Source: an uncultured Saprospiraceae bacterium (lineage in GTDB: Bacteria > Bacteroidota > Bacteroidia > Chitinophagales > Saprospiraceae). Taken from it: a stretch of DNA of 64,000 nt. Position 1 is the stretch's first letter; the number at the start of each line of letters is the position of its first letter. The position numbers and the translations under genes were made by a program. The stretch is taken from contig CALFWO010000007.1 in NCBI GenBank assembly GCA_937928045.1, positions 1-64,000 of the forward strand, in the 5' to 3' direction. Under the pieces are notes generated by a model. That model did not search any database, was not told the DNA's origin, and was given only the letters and a program-made list of their open reading frames with translations. Positions 1,412 to 40,976 of this stretch are shown in pieces.

Positions 1412-1846
1412 TTAAATGACTCCAAGAAATTTCTTTAAACATTTTTTGATCGATCGACTAATTGGAATATGCTCCTTATTTTCCATTAAAAGATAGCCTC
1501 CTTCTTTGTTCACATGCTTTAATATATTGTAAGGATTAACGAGATAACTTTTATGAACTCGGTAAAATCCTAAATAGGTGCATTGTTCTTCAACCAACTT
1601 AAGAGATCTCATAATAAAATTTACCGTGCCATCTGCTGAATACAATCTGCAATAAATATCATCCGATTTGAAGTGTGAAATTTCAGAAATTTTGATAAAT
1701 AAAAATCCATCTAATGTGGGAAAACAAATTTTATCTGAGTTTTCTTTGATCACTTTAGCAACATCCTCGTTGTTATGCGCCTTGAATCTATTGGTTGTAA
1801 CTGATAAATTTTGAATGATCATAATATTAGTTTTAAAAAAAAGCAT
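1412..1846 (-). CDS. stand-alone LytTR DNA-binding protein (first copy)
   Basis: The 144-residue product consists of little more than a LytTR DNA-binding domain at about residues 40-140. Visible motifs are ISEISHFKSDDIYCRL, GFYRVHKSYLVNP and IPISRSIKKCLKKF, all typical of LytTR proteins. There is no receiver domain, so its activity must be set by abundance or by a partner. It is paralogous to the LytTR gene at 6580, sharing the HKSYLVN core. It lies 58 bp after the response-regulator gene on the same strand and is probably the last gene of that operon. A second in-frame ATG at 1822 (MIIQNL...) is equally possible; the T- and A-rich stretch before it resembles the leaders of other genes in the locus. 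Confidence 0.85.
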   Translation of the reverse strand: MLFFKTNIMIIQNLSVTTNRFKAHNNEDVAKVIKENSDKICFPTLDGFLFIKISEISHFKSDDIYCRLYSADGTVNFIMRSLKLVEEQCTYLGFYRVHKSYLVNPYNILKHVNKEGGYLLMENKEHIPISRSIKKCLKKFLGVI

Positions 1847-1904: not shown

Positions 1905-2540
1905 TTAACTTAGATTAAGGTATTTTTTTACGGCCTCAACTCGATTGTACACTTGCAATTTTTTATAAATATTGTAAATGGTTGCTTTAACCGTATTCTC
2001 AGAAATATTGAGTTTATCTTTTACTTCTTTGTTCAAAAAGCCTTTTGCAATCAAATCAAGAATTTGTTCTTCACGCTTTGAAAGCTTTTGCAATTCTTTG
2101 AGTTCATCCACAGGTTGGTGAAAACTACTGACCACTTTTTGTGCAATAATTGCTGACATTGGTGAACCTCCATTTACAAAGTCCTCCAAAACTGAGATTA
2201 GTTTATCAGGAATATCATTCTTCAATAAATAGGCTCCAGCACCAACGCGCAAAGCTTCAAATATTTTCTGATCATGACTAAAACTTGTAATCACCAAGAA
2301 CTTCAATTCCGGATTGACAATTTTTAACTTAAGCATAGTTTCCACTCCATCGATCTCCGAAGTCTCTAATCCTAGATCCATAATTATGGCATCCGGAACG
2401 AGTGCAGGTATCTGCGCTAGCGCTTCTTTTGCCGTTTCAAAACTAGCAATACACTCAAAGTTTTCGGACTCCTCTATTTCCTCAAGAAGCCAATTTCTAA
2501 ACTCCTCATTATCTTCAACTATGCAGATTTTTTTTATCAT
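1905..2540 (-). CDS. NarL/FixJ-type response regulator (receiver plus LuxR HTH)
   Basis: With the ATG at 2540 the protein is 211 residues and begins MIKKICIVEDN, as receivers normally do; an upstream GTG at 2561 would add seven residues. The receiver has the acidic pair in VEDN, the phospho-acceptor aspartate in AIIMDLGL (about residue 55), the threonine in VITSF and the lysine in LLKND. A LuxR-type helix-turn-helix follows (LSKREEQILDLIAKG, ISENTVKATIYNIYKKL). It is a DNA-binding transcription factor and lies 66 bp downstream of the propeller histidine kinase, its evident cognate sensor. The usual third partner, the output promoter, may be within this locus. Confidence 0.93.
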   Translation of the reverse strand: MIKKICIVEDNEEFRNWLLEEIEESENFECIASFETAKEALAQIPALVPDAIIMDLGLETSEIDGVETMLKLKIVNPELKFLVITSFSHDQKIFEALRVGAGAYLLKNDIPDKLISVLEDFVNGGSPMSAIIAQKVVSSFHQPVDELKELQKLSKREEQILDLIAKGFLNKEVKDKLNISENTVKATIYNIYKKLQVYNRVEAVKKYLNLS

Positions 2541-2606
2541 TTTATTTTGAATTTCTGACACTGTAAAGATCGTTCGCTAATTTGATTTTACCAATAGTAC
2601 TTTAGT

Positions 2607-5456
2607 TTATGCCAATGGTACAGAGAACTTGGTGATCATCCAGTCTGATTTAGAGAAATGCACTTCTCCTTTAATCGATGACATTCTCTTTCGAATAGAA
2701 TTTAGGCCTTTTCCAGAGGAATTAAGCGCGGCCGGATCAAAACCACTTCCATTCTCAGTAACAACAACATTTATGACATTACTTTCAACTTTGGCCGTTA
2801 CAATCACTTCATTTGCAGTAGAGTGTTTAATGATATTATTGAGTATCTCTTTTATAGCAAGTGAAAGATGGTGCCTGATCTGTCCTTTTATATATACACT
2901 TTGTTCAATGGATTGGAAATCGCATTTTATCGAAAGGTCATTATCTTCAGCCAACGTCGATGAAAAATTTCTTAGGTATGAGGTAAAACTTTCGTAAGTA
3001 TCGTTCTGTGTGTCCATGGCCCAAATTATCGACCGCATACTTTCAATCATTTCCGAAGATATCTCGGCAACTCTTGATGTAATGGTCTTGACATCATTAA
3101 TACTGTCGGCTCGTTGTATTTTTTTACTCGCAAATTTGATACTGGACAACTTACCGCCTAACTCATCATGCAATTCATCCGCAATTCGATTTCTTTCTTG
3201 CTGTAATTGAAGTTCCGTTTTTAGAACCAATTCTTGTTTCTCAAATGCAAATTTCTGTTCGCGAAGTTTATTTTTCAAATACAATATTATTGTGCCTCCA
3301 ACTATTGAAAGGGCCATTAACCACAATAAAGATCTAAACCACCAGGTTTGCCAATAAGGCGGTAGAATAGTTATTTCTAAGGTTGAAAATTCTTCCTTGC
3401 AATTTCCGGAAAGGGTACAAACGCCATACTTAAATGTGTAGTTACCAGGCTTAAGATTAGGATAAGTAATAACAGATTGATCTCCTAGCAATGTCGTATC
3501 TACATCATAGCCTTCTAAGAGGACGCTGTATTGCGGATGATTGTTTTCGGTATAATCTACCGCCACAAAATCAAAGGTCAATGTATTTTCATTGTACTCC
3601 AGATCCACATTTTCCACCACTTCAATATTGACTGTATCGTTCATCCACTCATGACCGTGAACTTTTAGAGAAGTCATCATGAGATTTGGATTGTAGTCTA
3701 TAGACTTGATAGAATCTGGGTGAAAATATAAGACTCCTTTGTTGGTACCAAAGTAGAGGGTACCGTCATGGCCGACAGTAGAACAGTCTGCTGAAAAGGT
3801 GTGAGACTCCAAGCCCGATTTTTCATTGTACATGAGGAGTTTACCCTCTTTAGTTTCATGATACAAACCATTTCTGGTTCCAAACCAGAGGTCTCCGTTT
3901 AAGTCATATAGTAAAGTTTGGATATAGTGTTCCAGGTATTTGTAGTCGGAAATTTCTCTACTTCTTTTATTCAGAATCTTTATTCCTTCTGATGATCCCA
4001 AGAGCAAGGTAGAATCGCTTTGTTCAAGGTATTGCGTTACGCCGGTTTCAAAAGGAATCAAATGATCTAGTCTAACATTTTCAATTTCAATTTTGAAAAC
4101 ATATATATTTTTCAAATCACTGGCATAAAGAAAATTGCCAACCTCATAAAATATCTGATCGTAAAACGACCCCCTATGCAATATGTTCTTTTCATTTGAC
4201 TTTTCACTCCAAACAAAAACTTCATTCTTATCAACAACTAATAGCTTCTCTCCACCTAGCCATAATGCTCCTCTAATATTTGTTAGATTATTAATTCTAC
4301 TTTTATTTATTATCTTTTTTCCCTCTACTGTTTGGTAGCTATAGTTGGACAAAACGGATAAAGCGTTAGGCTCACCTAATACAAAAACGGGATCATAAAG
4401 TGCATTGCAAATCAATTCAAAATCCTCACCATTAAAGCCCATTACATCTCCATTCAAAAATGAATAAAATATGGACTTATTTAGTCGAATTACGCTGTTA
4501 GAAATGGATTTTGATTTTTCAAATTTAAAGCCCGAATTTTTACTATTAACAATTTTAAGACCTTCATCTCCAATGGATGTAATAAATACATCTTGAACGG
4601 GATTAAAAACCCCTTGAGCAGACTGATCCAAAATTTTATCAACAGACCCATTCTCAAGTACTTCATAAACACTTTTTGTATCAGAGAATATCAATCGATT
4701 GCTAGCCGAAACATTAATAAGGCTTATTGGCGATTTTACAATTTCAGTTAGTTCATCACCCTTCAAATTATATATTCCATTTTTAGTAGAAAAATAAATT
4801 TTGTTGTCAATTTCCCGCAGCTGCCTAACTTCCAGTTGGTGCCCTAAGGTGTCCATGTCAAAACCTCCTTTCTCAGTCCTAGTAAGTCTTAGCAACCCTT
4901 TTCCATAATTCCACCTACTTCCATACAAAGAATGAAAATTCCTCTTCTGGTCAACATTTAGGATAAATTCTATGCCTTGAAATCCATTATAAATTTCATT
5001 GAACTTATATTGATTTAAATCAAATGAATAAACAGTCTTACCAACTTGAAGGTAGGCAAGACTGTCAACCACATCAATCAAACGATATGAAGTACTAGAG
5101 GTATCCACTTGAAAATTTTCAAAACCATCAATCTCCTTGTTCCACTTCACTAAATAATTGACAGTAGTGAACCAAATATTTCCTTCATCATCTTCTACGA
5201 AAGGACTTTGATTAAGTCCTTCATTTAGACCATATTTTTTTGCAGGTTCTGGCCAATATATTTTGGTCGTTTCGCCATCATATCTATTAACTGCATTTAA
5301 TGATGAAATCCAGAGTGTGGAATCAGATGACTGATAACAATAGTAATTGTTATAGTCCGAAAGATTTAAACTTACTTGAGAATAACCTCCGTTATACAGA
5401 GAGAAACAAAGAAGAAAAAAGCAAACAGTTTTGCTTAAACTCGAAGTTCGAATCAT
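2607..5456 (-). CDS. two-component sensor histidine kinase with periplasmic propeller and Y_Y_Y domain
   Basis: The 949-residue sensor has a signal sequence (about residues 8-26), a long periplasmic region with degenerate propeller repeats (WISSLNAVNRYDG, NIWFTTVN, DLWFGTRNGLYHET, TLYFGTNKGVLYF), a Y_Y_Y-type Ig domain (YSVLLEGYD, NLKPGNYTFKYG) and one transmembrane helix near residue 720. The cytoplasmic part has a HisKA_3 dimerisation segment with the phospho-acceptor histidine in ELHDELGGKLSS (about residue 763) and a HATPase domain (EILNNIIKHS, GKGLNSIRKRM). This architecture reads periplasmic ligands and pairs with NarL-type regulators; the regulator gene follows directly. Its ATG overlaps the stop of the preceding 253-aa gene by four bases (ATGA), so the two are translationally coupled. 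Confidence 0.92.
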   Translation of the reverse strand: MIRTSSLSKTVCFFLLCFSLYNGGYSQVSLNLSDYNNYYCYQSSDSTLWISSLNAVNRYDGETTKIYWPEPAKKYGLNEGLNQSPFVEDDEGNIWFTTVNYLVKWNKEIDGFENFQVDTSSTSYRLIDVVDSLAYLQVGKTVYSFDLNQYKFNEIYNGFQGIEFILNVDQKRNFHSLYGSRWNYGKGLLRLTRTEKGGFDMDTLGHQLEVRQLREIDNKIYFSTKNGIYNLKGDELTEIVKSPISLINVSASNRLIFSDTKSVYEVLENGSVDKILDQSAQGVFNPVQDVFITSIGDEGLKIVNSKNSGFKFEKSKSISNSVIRLNKSIFYSFLNGDVMGFNGEDFELICNALYDPVFVLGEPNALSVLSNYSYQTVEGKKIINKSRINNLTNIRGALWLGGEKLLVVDKNEVFVWSEKSNEKNILHRGSFYDQIFYEVGNFLYASDLKNIYVFKIEIENVRLDHLIPFETGVTQYLEQSDSTLLLGSSEGIKILNKRSREISDYKYLEHYIQTLLYDLNGDLWFGTRNGLYHETKEGKLLMYNEKSGLESHTFSADCSTVGHDGTLYFGTNKGVLYFHPDSIKSIDYNPNLMMTSLKVHGHEWMNDTVNIEVVENVDLEYNENTLTFDFVAVDYTENNHPQYSVLLEGYDVDTTLLGDQSVITYPNLKPGNYTFKYGVCTLSGNCKEEFSTLEITILPPYWQTWWFRSLLWLMALSIVGGTIILYLKNKLREQKFAFEKQELVLKTELQLQQERNRIADELHDELGGKLSSIKFASKKIQRADSINDVKTITSRVAEISSEMIESMRSIIWAMDTQNDTYESFTSYLRNFSSTLAEDNDLSIKCDFQSIEQSVYIKGQIRHHLSLAIKEILNNIIKHSTANEVIVTAKVESNVINVVVTENGSGFDPAALNSSGKGLNSIRKRMSSIKGEVHFSKSDWMITKFSVPLA

Positions 5457-6214
5457 ACTCTATTAAGAGGCTTTTTTAGCGCAATTTTCCCATATGGTAT
5501 TGTCCTGAAATCTCCGATACTATTTTCTAACACCAAATTATAAAATCTATATTTCATTATATCCCAAACAGGAGGACAAGGAACGCCTGCAGCAACCGAA
5601 GTCGCAATTTCATGATTCCGGGCCACATTGGGAGTTCCAGAATTTATACTGGCTGTCAAAGTTAAATACCTCTTATTCGTCACAGTTCCTGATTCTTCTT
5701 TTGGGATATCAATAACTGAATGTGTAAAGTATAGGGAAACATTCGGCCCCGGAACTTCTGGAATTTCTGGCACTTCTGGAACTAAATCATCAACCATAGT
5801 AGTATTTGAATTAGTTAAATCAGAATCCTGGGGTGTAGCGTCAACAATTAAATTTTGATTCAAAGCATTTCTAATCAATCGTGTAATTTCACTTCTCGGA
5901 AAATAAACTAAAACCAAATCTTCATCAATTCCTTGTTCAGAAAGAAGAAAATCATTTAAGTCAGAAACCTTATTCATCGCTAAATAATTTTCGGTTAAAA
6001 CCGTAACATCATAATTCTGATCATTAACACCCCTATTATATAAATTTACAATAGTAAAATTACCATTATCATCCGATGTATACATTCCCATAAACCATCG
6101 GTCCACCTCAAGATTCGGCATTTTATATAATATTATGCTTTCAAAATCCTCGTTAGATGAATTCACCAGTGTATTTGCTAGGTTCGCAGAAAGATCAATT
6201 CTGTACTGTGCCAT
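5453..6214 (-). CDS. unknown 253-aa protein coupled to the sensor kinase
   Basis: I do not recognise this protein. It has no signal peptide or membrane segment and begins MAQYRIDLSANLANTLV. An N-terminal portion of about 150 residues ends in a Pro/Glu/Val-rich linker (VPEVPEIPEVPGP). A second module with KRYLTLTASINSG and cysteine-containing GVPCPPVWDIMKYRFYNLV follows. It is the first gene of the leftward unit, and its stop codon overlaps the kinase start as ATGA, so it is made with the kinase. A role as cytoplasmic partner or ligand-related protein is only inference. It is read from the same divergent control region as the LytTR gene at 6580, and its leader carries the ACTTTTAAACATT element also found before 7113 and 7856. 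Confidence 0.75.
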   Translation of the reverse strand: MAQYRIDLSANLANTLVNSSNEDFESIILYKMPNLEVDRWFMGMYTSDDNGNFTIVNLYNRGVNDQNYDVTVLTENYLAMNKVSDLNDFLLSEQGIDEDLVLVYFPRSEITRLIRNALNQNLIVDATPQDSDLTNSNTTMVDDLVPEVPEIPEVPGPNVSLYFTHSVIDIPKEESGTVTNKRYLTLTASINSGTPNVARNHEIATSVAAGVPCPPVWDIMKYRFYNLVLENSIGDFRTIPYGKIALKKPLNRV

Positions 6215-6221
6215 AATTTCT

Positions 6222-6235
6222 AATGTTTAAAAGTT
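6222..6235 (-). promoter_or_regulatory. shared leader element AACTTTTAAACATT (minus strand)
   Basis: On the minus strand this 14-mer is identical to the one before the gene at 7113. It ends seven bases before the ATG at 6214. Confidence 0.4.
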
Positions 6236-6327
6236 TGAATTAAAAAATTTAAAAGCATGGAAATTTTCTCAAATCACCACATCTTTTTATCAAAACAAAT
6301 ATCTAGATCAATTAAACCGCGACCACT

Positions 6328-6358
6328 ACCATTTACCCTACAAAAATGACCGTTCACC
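6328..6358 (+). promoter_or_regulatory. LytTR-like direct repeat pair A (ACCATTTACC-N11-ACCGTTCACC)
   Basis: The copies start at 6328 and 6349. They agree at 8 of 10 positions and are exactly 21 bp apart. The second copy matches the published LytTR consensus at every position but the last. The pair lies 230 bp before the LytTR start and about 115 bp before the divergent unknown gene. Confidence 0.6.
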
Positions 6359-6488
6359 TTAAATACGGTCAAAATACTGGTTTCTTCAGTATAAAATCTC
6401 AACATATTGCCATTAAGATATTACATTGTTTTCATAATATATAGTCTTTAGACAATTGAATTCTGATCGTAAATTGTTCTCTGCATTT

Positions 6489-6519
6489 TCCGTTCACCTT
6501 ATTGAATCGACCATTCACA
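6489..6519 (+). promoter_or_regulatory. LytTR-like direct repeat pair B (TCCGTTCACC-N11-ACCATTCACA)
   Basis: The copies start at 6489 and 6510, again exactly 21 bp apart. The pair ends 60 bp before the LytTR ATG, a position suited to autoregulation. Confidence 0.6.
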
Positions 6520-6579
6520 AACATTAGATTCTTTTTCTAATCTAAACCCACGACATTCGGACATCCAAATAAATATTCA

Positions 6580-6933
6580 ATGTCGAAAATAATTGTTCCT
6601 ACCTCAGATGGAATGCATTTGATTAATATAGAAGACATACTCTATCTAAAGTCTGAAGATATCTACGCATATGTTTACACCAATTCAGAAAAATTATTCA
6701 CGACTGTTTCCTTAGGCAGGATAGAAAAGGGCTTAAAGAGGCATTCATTCTTTAGATGTCATAAAAGTTATTTGGTCAACCTTGATCACTTAGCCAAGAT
6801 TACGAAGGGAGTAAATTACCAGTTGATACTTTCTTCAGGCGCGAAGATTCCACTCTCTCGCACTAAGAAAAAGCTATTAATAGAGCACTTAAAAACGCAA
6901 AAGAAATTCATCTCCTACCATAGACCTCAATAA
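6580..6933 (+). CDS. stand-alone LytTR DNA-binding protein (second copy)
   Basis: The 117-residue protein is almost entirely a LytTR domain: INIEDILYLKSEDIYAYVY, HSFFRCHKSYLVNLDHL and AKIPLSRTKKKLLIEHL are visible. There is no receiver domain. It is paralogous to the LytTR gene at 1412. Two pairs of LytTR-like repeats lie upstream, and three more phased copies lie at its 3' end and before the next gene, so autoregulation and control of the downstream secreted proteins are likely inferences. It heads the rightward half of the locus. Confidence 0.88.
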   Translation: MSKIIVPTSDGMHLINIEDILYLKSEDIYAYVYTNSEKLFTTVSLGRIEKGLKRHSFFRCHKSYLVNLDHLAKITKGVNYQLILSSGAKIPLSRTKKKLLIEHLKTQKKFISYHRPQ

Positions 6934-6968
6934 AAACACCATTCACAAGAATTTGAAAACTATTTTCA
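6917..6968 (+). promoter_or_regulatory. three LytTR-like repeats in 21-bp phase before the secreted-protein gene
   Basis: ACCATAGACC at 6917 (inside the last codons of the LytTR gene), ACCATTCACA at 6938 and the weaker ACTATTTTCA at 6959 are spaced 21 and 21 bp. The array lies about 145 bp before the ATG of the gene at 7113, so that gene is the probable target. Confidence 0.55.
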
Positions 6969-7092
6969 AAAGCCACCTCACATTTGAATCAATAAGTAGG
7001 AATTTAGACCATTAGCAAAGTATCCAATTAAAAAGTTAACTCTTATGGTGATTGGCTAGGATCTATTCTCCTTTATCTACATCAAGATTTTT

Positions 7093-7106
7093 AACTTTTA
7101 AACATT
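7093..7106 (+). promoter_or_regulatory. shared leader element AACTTTTAAACATT
   Basis: This 14-mer ends six bases before the ATG at 7113. The same sequence occurs in the leader of the divergent gene (222-235 of the 6.2 kb region, minus strand, 6222-6235), and ACTTTTAAACAAT occurs at 7837-7849 before the gene at 7856. Confidence 0.4.
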
Positions 7107-7112
7107 TCTAAA

Positions 7113-7787
7113 ATGAAAAACTCAACCTTACAATCAATTTTAGTTTTGGTATTCAGCTTTTACTTATTGAGCCAGCATTCCTATGCTCAAAATTCACATA
7201 ATTCATTAGGGTATTCTCAGCCTTCTATTAACTTAAATTCGCCTATTAACCCAGGGGAATCAAATTCTATAGTCTGGAGTAACAATCGAAACTGTTGCCT
7301 TGAATACGATAGCAATAATAACACAGTAGTAAAACTATCAGGAGGAAATAACTGGAATTGCGGTATTGCCTCAAAAAGTTATTTGCCTGCAAACAAGCCT
7401 GGATCTATTGAAATGGAGATAAAAAAAATCAACCACATGTTCATGATAGGTTTGACTGAAAAAGATGTCAACATGTCTTACGAACACATCCAATATGGTT
7501 TGATATTGCAACAAGGAATTGGACAGATGCAACTCAATATTTTTGAAAATGGCATAAACCTAGGAAAAAAGGCAACAGTTTATCTCAACGACATAATATC
7601 CATCGAAAGAACAGAAAGTCAGTCAATAAAATACCTGGTCAATTCAAATGTAATATTTACTTCAAATCAACCTAACAATAAATGTTTAATTATTGATAGC
7701 AGCCTGCGCATTGAAGGAGCCAAACTTGAAGATATTAATCTTAGTGAAAATTGGTCCAACAACGACTTGGATAGGTTTTGCAATTAA
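7113..7787 (+). CDS. secreted protein with a SPRY-like/lectin-like beta-sandwich domain
   Basis: The 224-residue protein has a signal peptide (MKNSTLQSILVLVFSFYLL, cleavage probably after SYAQ). The mature part resembles a concanavalin-like module found in bacterial surface proteins: NTVVKLSGGNNWNCGIAS, GSIEMEIKKINHMFMIGLT, an ENGINLGKK turn and SLRIEGAKLEDINL. It ends without a T9SS sorting domain. A binding or sensory role at the cell surface is inference. Phased LytTR-like sites lie upstream, and its leader carries AACTTTTAAACATT at 7093-7106. The next gene has a very similar leader and the same first residues, MKNST. Confidence 0.7.
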   Translation: MKNSTLQSILVLVFSFYLLSQHSYAQNSHNSLGYSQPSINLNSPINPGESNSIVWSNNRNCCLEYDSNNNTVVKLSGGNNWNCGIASKSYLPANKPGSIEMEIKKINHMFMIGLTEKDVNMSYEHIQYGLILQQGIGQMQLNIFENGINLGKKATVYLNDIISIERTESQSIKYLVNSNVIFTSNQPNNKCLIIDSSLRIEGAKLEDINLSENWSNNDLDRFCN

Positions 7788-7836: not shown

Positions 7837-7849
7837 ACTTTTAAACAAT
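7837..7849 (+). promoter_or_regulatory. shared leader element ACTTTTAAACAAT
   Basis: This is the third copy of the locus-specific leader element, six bases before the ATG at 7856. Confidence 0.35.
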
Positions 7850-7855
7850 ACAAAA

Positions 7856-9571
7856 ATGAAAAACTCAACTCCACATTTGGTGCTAATTCTCATTCTTACA
7901 GGAATTAATTTCCCAATCTTTGCCCAGAACTTTATCACTGATTGGACTTTCTCCGCAGGAACAACAGATTTTGATATTCAAATTCAAACTGCGGGTGATG
8001 TTAATTATTCTTGGACAACGGACTTATCCGGAAATAGTGGTTCGGGGACAATAAATCAAGCTGCCTACGGCACAGTAAATATTTCTGGAATAACACTAAT
8101 ATCTGGAGACATTTTAACTTTAGAATTAGAACCATCAAATGTCAGAAGATTTGGATTAAATTTTAACTATAGACCTAACATTATTGACATCTCCCAATGG
8201 GGAGCAATTCCTTGGACTGACATGATCCAATCTTTCTTCGGTGGAGTTAACCTAGATATTTCTGCGACTGACACTCCTGACTTAAGCAATTGTACAAATC
8301 TAGGAGTTGCTTTTAGAGGATGTACTTCATTAAACTCTCCAAACTTTATCAATTGGAATATATCGAATGTTACAAACCTATCAAGCATGTTCAACGCCTG
8401 CCCAAGTTTTAATCAAGACATTGGGGGTTGGGATGTAAGCAATGTTACTTTTATGATTTCAATGTTTCAAGATGCAACTGCATTTAACCAAAATATCGGT
8501 AGCTGGGATGTGTCAAATGTGGAATTTATGGCTGGAATGTTCATGGGCGCAACTGCTTTTAATCAGGACATTACTAACTGGGATGTTTCCGACGTAACCA
8601 ATATGCGCTTGATGTTTGCTGATGGTAATTTCAGTCAAGATATTTCTTCATGGGACGTAGGTGATGTAACCAATATGGAATTCATGTTCAGTGGCACCTC
8701 TATTTTTAATCGAGATTTATCTTCGTGGAACATGTCGAAAGTAACAAGACTTCGAAGCATGTTTGAAGATGCGGCTGGGTTTAATCAAGATTTAGGTGCA
8801 TGGCAATTTCCTTCAAATCTTATTTCAGATCAATCCAAATTATTTGATAATTCTGGTATGGATTGTACCAATTATTCCAATACCCTAATCGGATGGGAAA
8901 CCAATAATCCAACGATAACAAACATTGACATTGGAGCACTAAATATAAATTACGGGACTGAAGCAGAAGCCGCTAGAACGGCTCTAATCAACAATCAGGG
9001 TTGGACATTTACTGGTGATATTGCCGCTGGTATGGATTGCCTCGCTCCTCTCCCAATAACTTGGTCTTCCAATCTCACTGCGAGACTAAAGGGCCAAACC
9101 GTAGAACTCAATTTCTCAGTTTCTAATCAAATTAACAACGACTATTTTCGAATAGAGCGAAGTGCTGATGGAAGACATTTTGAATCACTTGCGGATATTC
9201 CTGGAGAGATCAATTTTTCTTCGGAAAAGAAATACTCCGTGATTGACAAACAGCCAAGATATGGAACAAGTTATTACAGAGTTCAGCAAGTGGATTATGA
9301 TGGAAATTATAGTTACAGCAACATTGCTAATATCCAGCACAAATTAAACGATAGTGAAATGATATTTTATCCAAATCCAGCAGTTGGTCAGTTGTTCATT
9401 CAATCACAAAAAGCATTAGAACTCTCGATTTATAATGGTGTTGGAGAGATAATTGAACGGCATCAACTAGAAAAAGGAACTAATGAAATTGACATTTCAG
9501 CCATACTTCCAGGGACATATTTTATGAAAATCGATAATAGCATAGTGGATAAAATTATTATCACAAATTAA
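7856..9571 (+). CDS. BspA-family (DUF285) repeat surface protein with T9SS sorting domain
   Basis: The 571-residue protein has a signal peptide ending near IFAQ. It then has six tandem 24-25-residue repeats of the type WDVSNVTxMxxMFxxAxxFNQDI (about residues 167-315), the BspA/DUF285 leucine-rich-like repeat of bacterial surface and adhesion proteins. A module follows with FRIERSADGRHFESL, the fibronectin-like unit that often precedes sorting signals. It ends with a type A T9SS sorting domain: MIFYPNPAVGQLFIQ, GVGEIIERH, GTYFMKI. The protein should be exported and anchored to the outer surface. It probably shares a transcript or regulator with the gene at 7113, and a hairpin terminator lies at 9677. 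Confidence 0.9.
   Translation: MKNSTPHLVLILILTGINFPIFAQNFITDWTFSAGTTDFDIQIQTAGDVNYSWTTDLSGNSGSGTINQAAYGTVNISGITLISGDILTLELEPSNVRRFGLNFNYRPNIIDISQWGAIPWTDMIQSFFGGVNLDISATDTPDLSNCTNLGVAFRGCTSLNSPNFINWNISNVTNLSSMFNACPSFNQDIGGWDVSNVTFMISMFQDATAFNQNIGSWDVSNVEFMAGMFMGATAFNQDITNWDVSDVTNMRLMFADGNFSQDISSWDVGDVTNMEFMFSGTSIFNRDLSSWNMSKVTRLRSMFEDAAGFNQDLGAWQFPSNLISDQSKLFDNSGMDCTNYSNTLIGWETNNPTITNIDIGALNINYGTEAEAARTALINNQGWTFTGDIAAGMDCLAPLPITWSSNLTARLKGQTVELNFSVSNQINNDYFRIERSADGRHFESLADIPGEINFSSEKKYSVIDKQPRYGTSYYRVQQVDYDGNYSYSNIANIQHKLNDSEMIFYPNPAVGQLFIQSQKALELSIYNGVGEIIERHQLEKGTNEIDISAILPGTYFMKIDNSIVDKIIITN
8354..8803 (+). repeat. six tandem DUF285 repeats (72-75 bp)
   Basis: The conserved Trp codons start at 8354, 8429, 8504, 8579, 8651, 8726 and 8801. 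The period is therefore 75 bp, with one 72-bp unit. The repeats have diverged at the DNA level. Confidence 0.85.
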
Positions 9572-23288: not shown

Positions 23289-23387
23289 AAACTTCTAACA
23301 CCAAGGATTAGGAGAACTTTGGTTCAGGAATCGAAAAAACTAAGCATGAATAATTGGTCTTTGACCGTTCACAATAAAAGCTAAGAG

Positions 23388-39215: not shown

Positions 39216-40976
39216 CTAATTCAATTGATCTTCCAAAGATTCGATCAAATCTCCTGCTTCTCGGTAACTTTGTTGTAGATCACCTTCACCGGTTTTTCCC
39301 GCAAACAAAGCCATTTGGCAATTCTTCAGGATATCCATAAAGCCTTCAATGGAATTTGACTGAAGAGATAGACTTTCCAATTTTTCTCTGATAAAAGACT
39401 CGCTCAAAGATGAAAGTGGAATGCCAATTTTATCTTCCAAATAACCGTGCATAGCTTTTGACAACTCATCATAAAATTGTCTAGGGTTGTTTTGATCGAG
39501 AGCTAATTTTGCTTGACTAAGTTTTAGCAAAGCCATTTCTCTTGCTTTGTTTCTTCGATCAACTTCCGGATTAATTGCTGGCTGATTTTTTCGATAATAA
39601 AAAATACCAATCATGGATAGCATTCCGAAAATTGGTACTCCCATCATGGACCAAAGCAATGTTTTATTTATTGGTTCCAAAGAAGGCATGCCATTGTCAT
39701 TATGAGATAGCATGATACCGCTAAGTCCATCTTTGATTACCGGAGCCTCATAATTAGTCGTTCCAATCGGGTTAGAACCTTTCGAAACGCGCAACTCAAT
39801 TGTATCACAGCTTAAGGAAACGTAAGACATATTTTCGGCATCGAAATAGGAATACTTCGGGCTGACTTGATAAGTGCCGGGATACTTTGGCAATATTACA
39901 AACTCAAAGGATTTCTCTTTTACAATTCCATTAGGGGTTTGAAATGAATTTTCATCCACCAATTTTGGCGTATAGATTTCCAAACTATCCGTTGAAGAAA
40001 ATTTAGGAGCTTGCATTTGTTTTGTATCTCCTTTCCCTACAATTTTTATTAATAAACTGATTGCATCATCTGTGGTTATGACCCGTTGATCAACTTTACA
40101 TTGAATATCTAATTCTCCAACCGCTCCAGAAAAATCACTTGGTGCAGGCTGCGGTAAATCATCAACACGCACGTTAAAACCATTAGACCTTAAGTCAATT
40201 CTATTCACGGAAGGTTGATTAAAAAAGGAGCGTCTTCTTGGACCATTTTTATCTTCAACATCAATCATTATTCGATAAGAACCTATTTCCAAATCTCCCA
40301 ATTGCTGTGGATAAATGATACTCCTGAACAAGGTTTTACTCTTGAATTTTTTACCATTCACAGTAGCCTCATAAGTCCGATAAGTTCCTCTTGGATTATC
40401 CTCACGATAAAAACCAGTAAGCGTTGGTTCTGCCAACAACCTGACATTATACACATTCGGAATCCAGTACAATTTTAATTCATAAACCAAAGGTTGACCG
40501 ATTACCGCTGTAGAATCGGATAATTCTGCTCGGATAAAAACTTGTTCTGTGAGCGCGGCTGTTAATTCTTCATCAGTTGAAGCATTATTTACTTTTGCTC
40601 TAATGACTTCAATTTGAATTCGTTTGGTAAATACGGTTTGACCGGCGATATCAATAGACGCTGGCTGAATCCAAAATTTTCCAGTTTTCTCTGGTTTGAT
40701 ACTATAGGTCCATGATTCTGATGATGACACCCGTCCATTAACGTTGGAGGTTCGAGTCCCTCGCATAGGAGCACCAAGCACTTTGAAGTATTTAAAATCT
40801 GGAGGTGTAAAATTTGCGCCTCTAGTATTGCTCAAAGTGAACTCTACTTGTATAGATTCTCCAATAGCAACTTGCTTTGCATCCACAGAAACATTCCATC
40901 TAGAATCCGAAGCTTGAGAAAAAAGCTGAACTCCTAGAAAAAGGAAAAAAATAGTAATTAAAGAGAACTGCTTCAT
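39216..40976 (-). CDS. batD: BatD family protein
   Basis: The 586-residue protein has a signal peptide ending near LFSQ. Repeated BatD Ig-like domains follow (WNVSVDAKQVAIGESIQVEFTL, WTYSIKPEKTGKFWIQPASI, KSFEFVILPKYPGTYQVSP). A transmembrane helix near residue 445 (LLWSMMGVPIFGMLSMIGI) leads to a cytoplasmic helical C terminus. BatD proteins act with VWA-domain BatA/B and MoxR ATPases at the inner membrane in aerotolerance and stress. It is the last gene of the nine-gene operon and abuts the preceding gene with no gap. Confidence 0.92.
   Translation of the reverse strand: MKQFSLITIFFLFLGVQLFSQASDSRWNVSVDAKQVAIGESIQVEFTLSNTRGANFTPPDFKYFKVLGAPMRGTRTSNVNGRVSSSESWTYSIKPEKTGKFWIQPASIDIAGQTVFTKRIQIEVIRAKVNNASTDEELTAALTEQVFIRAELSDSTAVIGQPLVYELKLYWIPNVYNVRLLAEPTLTGFYREDNPRGTYRTYEATVNGKKFKSKTLFRSIIYPQQLGDLEIGSYRIMIDVEDKNGPRRRSFFNQPSVNRIDLRSNGFNVRVDDLPQPAPSDFSGAVGELDIQCKVDQRVITTDDAISLLIKIVGKGDTKQMQAPKFSSTDSLEIYTPKLVDENSFQTPNGIVKEKSFEFVILPKYPGTYQVSPKYSYFDAENMSYVSLSCDTIELRVSKGSNPIGTTNYEAPVIKDGLSGIMLSHNDNGMPSLEPINKTLLWSMMGVPIFGMLSMIGIFYYRKNQPAINPEVDRRNKAREMALLKLSQAKLALDQNNPRQFYDELSKAMHGYLEDKIGIPLSSLSESFIREKLESLSLQSNSIEGFMDILKNCQMALFAGKTGEGDLQQSYREAGDLIESLEDQLN

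Follow-up and report, generated by a model that had tools for sequence, protein, structure and literature searches.

Genes around LytTR1

The window, by which we mean the whole 64-kb stretch of DNA analysed here, carries at 6580..6933 on the + strand the gene of a 117-aa protein, LytTR1, which is a stand-alone LytTR DNA-binding protein without a receiver. Its match to Pfam family PF04397 scores 89.5 bits against a curated cut-off of 22.6, which places it within the LytTR domain family, and is the top score among 18 LytTR matches in the genome, most of which are longer, response-regulator-sized frames. The domain spans residues 11-104, and a Pfam search returned no further family for LytTR1. 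The protein also aligns with two solved chains, 3d6w (E 6.7e-10) and ComE 4cbv (E 0.0053).

Divergently to LytTR1, on the - strand, lies a predicted operon. Its first gene (5453..6214) encodes a 253-aa protein of no family, for which a search of 398 genomes of the same bacterial family returned the self-match alone. This gene overlaps by 4 bp with the gene of a 949-aa histidine kinase (2607..5456) that carries Reg_prop, Y_Y_Y, HisKA_3 and HATPase_c domains. There follow a NarL/LuxR-type response regulator of 218 aa (1905..2561) and a second stand-alone LytTR protein, LytTR2, of 144 aa (1412..1846), which is 36% identical to LytTR1. Neither LytTR1 nor LytTR2 has a Response_reg match in the Pfam search.

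On the other side, 179 bp 3' of the end of LytTR1, begins gene 7113 (7113..7787, +), which encodes a predicted secreted protein of 224 aa and no family; its N-terminus, judged by eye, is signal-peptide-like, with a single hydrophobic stretch. This is the gene downstream of LytTR1, and a membrane inhibitor gene is absent from the LytTR1 transcription unit. Next comes gene 7856 (7856..9571, +), which encodes a 571-aa surface protein with DUF285/PARCEL repeats and a type IX secretion sorting tail; the repeat models that match it carry the names of Mycoplasma and Listeria proteins. The first 14 bases of genes 7113 and 7856 are identical. Exactly three copies of the 10-mer CTTTTAAACA occur in the window (6224-6233 on the - strand, 7095-7104 and 7838-7847 on the + strand), each beginning 18-19 nt 5' of a start codon, namely those of the divergent operon, 7113 and 7856. 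Genome-wide, the 10-mer is not enriched (35 copies against 53 for the reversed control).

Repeat pairs in 21-bp phase

Six 9-mers of the type ACCRTTCAC, all read on the + strand, form three direct pairs around LytTR1. Pair P1 (6328..6357), ACCATTTAC-12-ACCGTTCAC, lies 113 bp 5' of the ATG of the divergent operon and has one mismatch in the copy at 6328 and none in that at 6349. Pair P2 (6489..6518), TCCGTTCAC-12-ACCATTCAC, lies 61 bp 5' of the LytTR1 ATG, with one mismatch at 6489 and none at 6510. Pair P3 (6917..6946), ACCATAGAC-12-ACCATTCAC, lies 166 bp 5' of the ATG of 7113, with two mismatches at 6917 and none at 6938. Within each pair the start-to-start distance is exactly 21 bp, as the first-pass annotation had stated, so that all three have the form of LytTR operators, direct 9-bp repeats with a 12-bp gap, and can be taken as predicted operators; LytTR Regulatory Systems (LRS) are described with the same 9-12-9 arrangement (PMC6193735). 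P1 and P2 are 161 bp apart, between the divergent genes. The first copy of P3 overlaps the 3' end of LytTR1, whose stop codon ends at 6933; the sites are otherwise non-coding, and the three 12-bp spacers are mutually unrelated.

The same annotation had counted seven repeats, and six of them stand as the three pairs. The seventh, ACTATTTTC at 6959..6967 on the + strand, is in phase and is not convincing, with three mismatches: 1028 of about 64,000 + strand 9-mers in the window (1.6%) have at most three, and this copy cannot be told from chance. At the in-phase positions flanking P1 and P2 there are four to eight mismatches. Two further exact copies had been noted in the window, and they are found at 23364, between two ORFs, and at 40353, inside an ORF. 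The best copies had also been said to fit the published LytTR consensus save at the last position; this holds for ACCGTTCAC at 6349 only, ACCATTCAC differing at one more. As to the control of surface proteins that the annotation had proposed, gene 7113 does have a pair of its own, and no other secreted-protein gene does, the surface-protein gene 7856 included.

The paired motif is rare. In the window, four neighbouring pairs (the fourth being 6938/6959) have a total of at most three mismatches at a spacing of 21, and at other spacings from 10 to 59 there is at most one such pair per strand. The real stretch 6215-7112 has three pairs with two mismatches or fewer, whereas 3000 dinucleotide shuffles of it produced not one. 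Across the 5.18-Mb genome, the motif has 19 matches with at most three mismatches against 14 for the reversed control, and five against two with at most two mismatches. P1 and P2 are the sole one-mismatch matches genome-wide, and the two-mismatch matches are P3 and two inside ORFs; three pairs thus lie within 620 bp, and the other matches of this quality in 5.18 Mb are the two in ORFs. Four of the 19 looser matches are at the locus (P1, P2, P3 and 6938/6959). The remaining 15 comprise 14 inside ORFs of at least 100 aa and one outside, C28:77073, with three mismatches and 85 bp 5' of an ORF. With so few matches elsewhere in the genome, the predicted operator is essentially private to the LytTR1 locus. 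We rejected a wider regulon in this genome for sites with at most three mismatches, C28:77073 being the sole non-ORF exception, and none of 15 other LytTR genes of this genome has such a pair within 400 bp upstream.

Conservation of the pairs and spacing to promoter-like boxes

We searched 398 genomes of the family by alignment, with LytTR1 and its counterpart in genome G181 as queries and at most 11 candidates scored per genome. A LytTR gene in genome G286 scored 122.5 bits and the next match 99.5; the 225.4 bits of the G181 protein are a score by construction, since it is one of the two query rows. G181 had been located through the motif scan, and G286 was located without the motif. Identity to LytTR1 is 46% for the G181 protein and 43% over 100 aa for the G286 protein, and both are stand-alone proteins from one other genus. 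The first-pass annotation's reading was to fall if the spacing proved not to be kept in related genomes, and it withstands this check: both G181 and G286 carry phased ACCRTTCAC-type pairs at 21 bp upstream of the LytTR1 orthologue, 98 bp away in G181 and 170 bp from the likely start in G286. In a three-way upstream alignment the pair is the main common feature, with the footprint CCRYTCACC-11-ACCATTCAC. No LytTR1 orthologue was found in the two same-genus genomes searched (73% and 81% complete), where the best matches are 35% and 38% identical, nor was a close one found among the best 80 of 282 wider relatives (best E 2e-16, best-segment identities 27-45%).

On contig C136 of G181, two pairs, one with no mismatch and the other with one, stand on either side of a 146-aa gene that precedes the stand-alone LytTR gene. 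The pair without mismatches is separated by 112 bp from the ATG of a divergent gene, as P1 is by 113 bp here, and has the identical orientation relative to LytTR1. The product of that divergent gene starts MQYKIDL and the 253-aa protein starts MAQYRIDL. The G181 gene is cut by the contig end, and in a single comparison the two share 14/49 identities at E 0.046, a protein match so weak that orthology is suggestive only. A LytTR2 orthologue in G181 (54% over 98 aa) also sits at a contig edge, on a different contig from the divergent gene. A G181 counterpart of the kinase operon was not found: the best kinase match, on C195 (28% identity), belongs to another operon, whose first gene encodes 425 aa and which lacks LytTR2. 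In G286, which is 94% complete and fragmented, no clear LytTR2 orthologue was found, the best match being LytTR1 itself; the presence of the pair there suggests that it travels with LytTR1, and pairs adjoin LytTR1 in all three genomes. Gene 7113 is not homologous to the G286 gene beside LytTR1 (E 2.4), and the G181 146-aa gene has no similarity to the 253-aa gene. A LytTR1-adjacent family without a Pfam match does link the two relatives (L198:8656-9096 in G181 and L249:573-1385 in G286; 47% over 144 aa).

Beyond these orthologues, a match to the paired motif means little on its own, since a pattern scan of 199 family genomes gave at least one paired match with at most two mismatches in 143, many of them tandem ACTATTCACTATTCAC arrays, and in some genomes control matches outnumber motif matches. 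Among 89 LytTR genes of this genome and of family and order relatives, four have a spacing-21 pair with at most three mismatches (those of this genome, G181, G286 and G173), where other spacings give 0.28 genes on average and never more than 1; if four mismatches are allowed the count is seven, compared with an average of 1.72 and a highest value of 5 at the other spacings. These counts are biased upwards, because G181 and G173 entered through the pattern search. In a wider collection, none of 87 LytTR genes with enough upstream DNA has a 21-bp pair with at most three mismatches, and two have one with at most four (mean 0.88 and maximum 5 at other spacings). These counts indicate that the exact ACCRTTCAC operator is not universal; across the LytTR loci of relatives the geometry recurs and the exact sequence does not.

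Some loci of relatives, chosen by eye among the matches listed from the 199-genome scan, link 21-bp arrays to other LytTR genes. In G173, a three-copy array (L200:6629-6679) lies 93 bp upstream of a LytTR response regulator gene, a zero-mismatch pair (L199:6797-6826) about 416 bp upstream of a LytS-type kinase gene, and a further three-copy array (L201:4277-4327) 93 bp upstream of a Fib_succ_major-domain gene. In G075, a three-copy array (L203:692-742) lies 122 bp upstream of a receiver-LytTR gene that is cut by the contig edge and was outside the 89-gene set, having missed its E-value limit; another (L202:6665-6715) lies just upstream of a secreted-protein gene. QPGLHVAENH, judged by eye, is common to the N-termini of the L202 and L201 proteins. 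G173 and G075 belong to one genus, and both have arrays before LytTR response regulator and secreted-protein genes, which may represent a small conserved regulon. A sister motif, ACCATTCAG-N12-ACCATTCAG, occurs at seven loci in four family genomes (L287, L288, L289, L290, L291, L292 and L293). In most of them AACA follows the second copy, and L293 has a full LytTR response regulator gene immediately upstream of the motif.

The pairs can also be placed relative to promoter-like sequences. The -7 element of Bacteroidota is given as TAnnTTTG, with its first T at -12 (PMC6847099). A candidate box of this kind for the divergent operon, GATATTTG (6296..6303, -), lies 89 nt before the ATG, and the G181 divergent gene has a box, TAATTTTG, likewise 89 nt before its ATG, an agreement found once when the three candidate boxes here are compared with the two in G181. 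A candidate box CACATTTG (6979..6986, +; 5/6) lies 32 nt behind P3, and a weak candidate for LytTR1, GACATTCG (6552..6559, +), which reaches just 4/6, lies 33 nt behind P2, the pair upstream of that gene. Counted from where the second repeat begins to where the box begins, these distances are 41 nt for P3 and 42 nt for the weak P2 box. From the sites given in PMC6193735 we computed the corresponding distance to the -10 hexamer as 41 nt for HdrR, 40 for BrsR and 42 for S. pneumoniae spr1731, which is like that of P3, and as 36 nt for SMU_294 and 45 nt for Bacteroides LRS-like operons with 11-bp repeats. In the interval between P2 and the LytTR1 start there is also a palindrome, TTAGATT-N8-AATCTAA (6524-6545), that occurs once in the window. 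We considered it as a site for the NarL-type regulator and did not use it, since none is seen by eye upstream of LytTR1 in G181 or G286.

A box of at least 5/6 stands at +32 after the second repeat in 6/16 chosen pairs (three from this locus, two from G181, one from G286, three from G173 and seven of the ACCATTCAG type, with the L202-L209 pairs left out), among them P3 and the pair before LytTR1 in G181. Shuffles reach six in 0/2000 cases at any of 85 offsets, with a maximum of four and a mean at +32 of 0.2; the offset of 32 was first noticed in the data and then tested as the maximum over 85 offsets, and the -7 motif and the 5/6 threshold were chosen after looking. Among the six LytTR1-locus pairs (three here, two in G181, one in G286) only two have such a box at +32. 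P1 and the G181 divergent pair have no box in the forward direction, and that of G286 is at +42. The two LytTR-linked arrays of G075, outside the 16, have just 4/6 boxes, at +31 and +32. Among 28 other pairs listed from the scan, 10 lie in ORFs, and of the 18 further non-coding ones, one has a box at +32 and none a LytTR gene in its 3-kb locus. Over all non-coding pairs examined, the count at +32 is 7/36.

Proposed regulation and its alternatives

We regard the set of predicted operators as real and well supported. The reading that we favour, at roughly three chances in four, is that the three pairs are operators of LytTR1, acting as an autoregulating, receiver-less activator that would also control the divergent operon and gene 7113. 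A LytTR dimer would sit on each head-to-tail pair, whose repeats face the same side of the DNA at a distance of two helical turns. Through P2, LytTR1 would turn on the gene that encodes it, and through P3 the secreted-protein gene 7113. Second repeats that begin some 41-42 nt before a -7 box hold the position of an activator in contact with RNA polymerase; LytTR1 therefore most probably activates itself and 7113, and the conserved distance of P1 from the divergent promoter-like box suggests that it probably adjusts the divergent operon too. P1 would then link the kinase, NarL-type and LytTR2 operon to LytTR1 and close a loop with the two-component system, in which the kinase/NarL pair may supply the signal to LytTR1. 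The earlier regulatory reading, of a LytTR protein acting on itself, the divergent operon and the surface proteins, is supported at the level of sequence, because the 21-bp pairs are kept at both orthologues and boxes lie near P3, P1 and, more weakly, P2.

Which protein would occupy the sites, and to what effect, can be read in other ways. It is possible, and we hold it a minority view of some weight, that LytTR2 uses the pairs as its operators, or that the two LytTR proteins share or compete for them as homo- or heterodimers, one acting as activator and the other as competitor. LytTR2 is itself stand-alone, is encoded in the divergent operon, resembles LytTR1 and has an orthologue in G181; G286, however, keeps the pair without a clear LytTR2 orthologue (with the caveat of its fragmented assembly), which favours LytTR1, and it is LytTR1 that the pairs adjoin in every one of the three genomes. 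That the sites serve another LytTR response regulator, encoded elsewhere and acting in trans, is improbable. There are candidates enough among the 18 LytTR matches, most of them response-regulator-sized, and LytTR repeat sequences resemble each other across regulators (tables of PMC6193735), but a regulator in trans would normally have further sites elsewhere, whereas every other genomic match with at most two mismatches falls inside an ORF, and the 15 other LytTR genes have no pair with up to three in the 400 bp upstream.

An effect opposite to activation, with P1 and P2 looping together over the divergent promoters to repress them, would suit two pairs placed 161 bp apart between divergent genes, one of which, P2, lacks a good forward box. 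We consider it unlikely, as the distance to the box matches the published activator geometry for P3 and roughly does so for P2. Chance, or a general sequence repeat in which protein-coding or 7-bp tandem repeats give ACCATTCAC at 21 bp, has on its side the matches in 143/199 family genomes with their many ACTATTCACTATTCAC arrays, the excess of control over motif matches in some of these, and the 10/28 other scan pairs in ORFs. At this locus, however, unrelated spacers separate the repeats, the sites lie in non-coding DNA except at the LytTR1 end, none of the 3000 shuffles produced a comparable pair and the orthologous loci retain theirs, all of which makes such an origin scarcely credible.

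Activation by LytTR1 remains our preferred reading, and among described systems LytTR1 and its repeats come close to the LRS without having their membrane inhibitor gene. In the LRS of Streptococcus mutans, HdrRM and BrsRM, the regulator likewise has no receiver, and 9-bp repeats with a 12-bp gap lie upstream of its own gene, with extra sites at target genes. The LRS differ in their membrane inhibitor gene, in place of which LytTR1 has as its neighbour the divergent histidine kinase/NarL-type/LytTR2 operon, and in their repeat core, which is ACCACTTAC-like and here ACCRTTCAC. As there is no membrane inhibitor in the LytTR1 transcription unit, we do not file the locus as an LRS. The best named relative of LytTR1 in NCBIfam is BtsSR (YehUT) of Escherichia coli, at 46.7 bits, far below the cut-off of 246. 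BtsSR has few target genes, as LytTR1 would, but its regulator BtsR contains a receiver domain and is paired with a LytS-type kinase. BtsSR is termed a LytS/LytTR-type system (PMC5552118); the locus here is not a two-component system of that kind, since LytTR1 lacks a receiver and the kinase beside it belongs to the HisKA_3 type.

In Bacteroidota, the phylum that the type IX sorting tail suggests for the window, LRS-like operons of Bacteroides thetaiotaomicron and B. ovatus share with our locus paired repeats upstream of a -7 box, TATCTTTG (PMC6193735, Table 3). In these operons, however, the repeats are 11 bp long with an 11-bp gap between them, the LytTR protein has transmembrane segments, and an NfeD/DUF2154 membrane protein is encoded as well (PMC6193735). 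Among titles and abstract openings of the open-licence literature, we found no paper on operators of a soluble stand-alone LytTR protein in Bacteroidota. For this phylum the accessible parts of PMC6193735 treat the Bacteroides LRS-like operons only, with no soluble stand-alone LytTR operator, those of PMC5552118, PMC10269533 and PMC6847099 describe none either, and those of the Flavobacterium papers PMC5395568 and PMC10197871 contain no LytTR operator. The candidate operator ACCRTTCAC-N12-ACCRTTCAC, often with a -7 box 32 nt downstream, could offer a handle for predicting what such proteins control.

Within a few kilobases the locus combines a two-component system with two LytTR proteins and with secreted proteins. 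We might go further and see in it one compound signalling unit of Bacteroidota, a NarL-type two-component system and two receiver-less LytTR proteins around one divergent control region, in which the kinase and NarL-type regulator would signal, LytTR1 and LytTR2 would act as amplifier and rival on shared operators, and the secreted proteins would be the output; such a unit would be an LRS equivalent with the two-component operon replacing the membrane inhibitor. We consider this extension doubtful. As to the kinase operon itself, its first gene and that of a different kinase operon in G181 (L281) both have no Pfam match, and both overlap their kinase gene by 4 bp, at 5453-5456 here and at L281:8512-8515 in G181.
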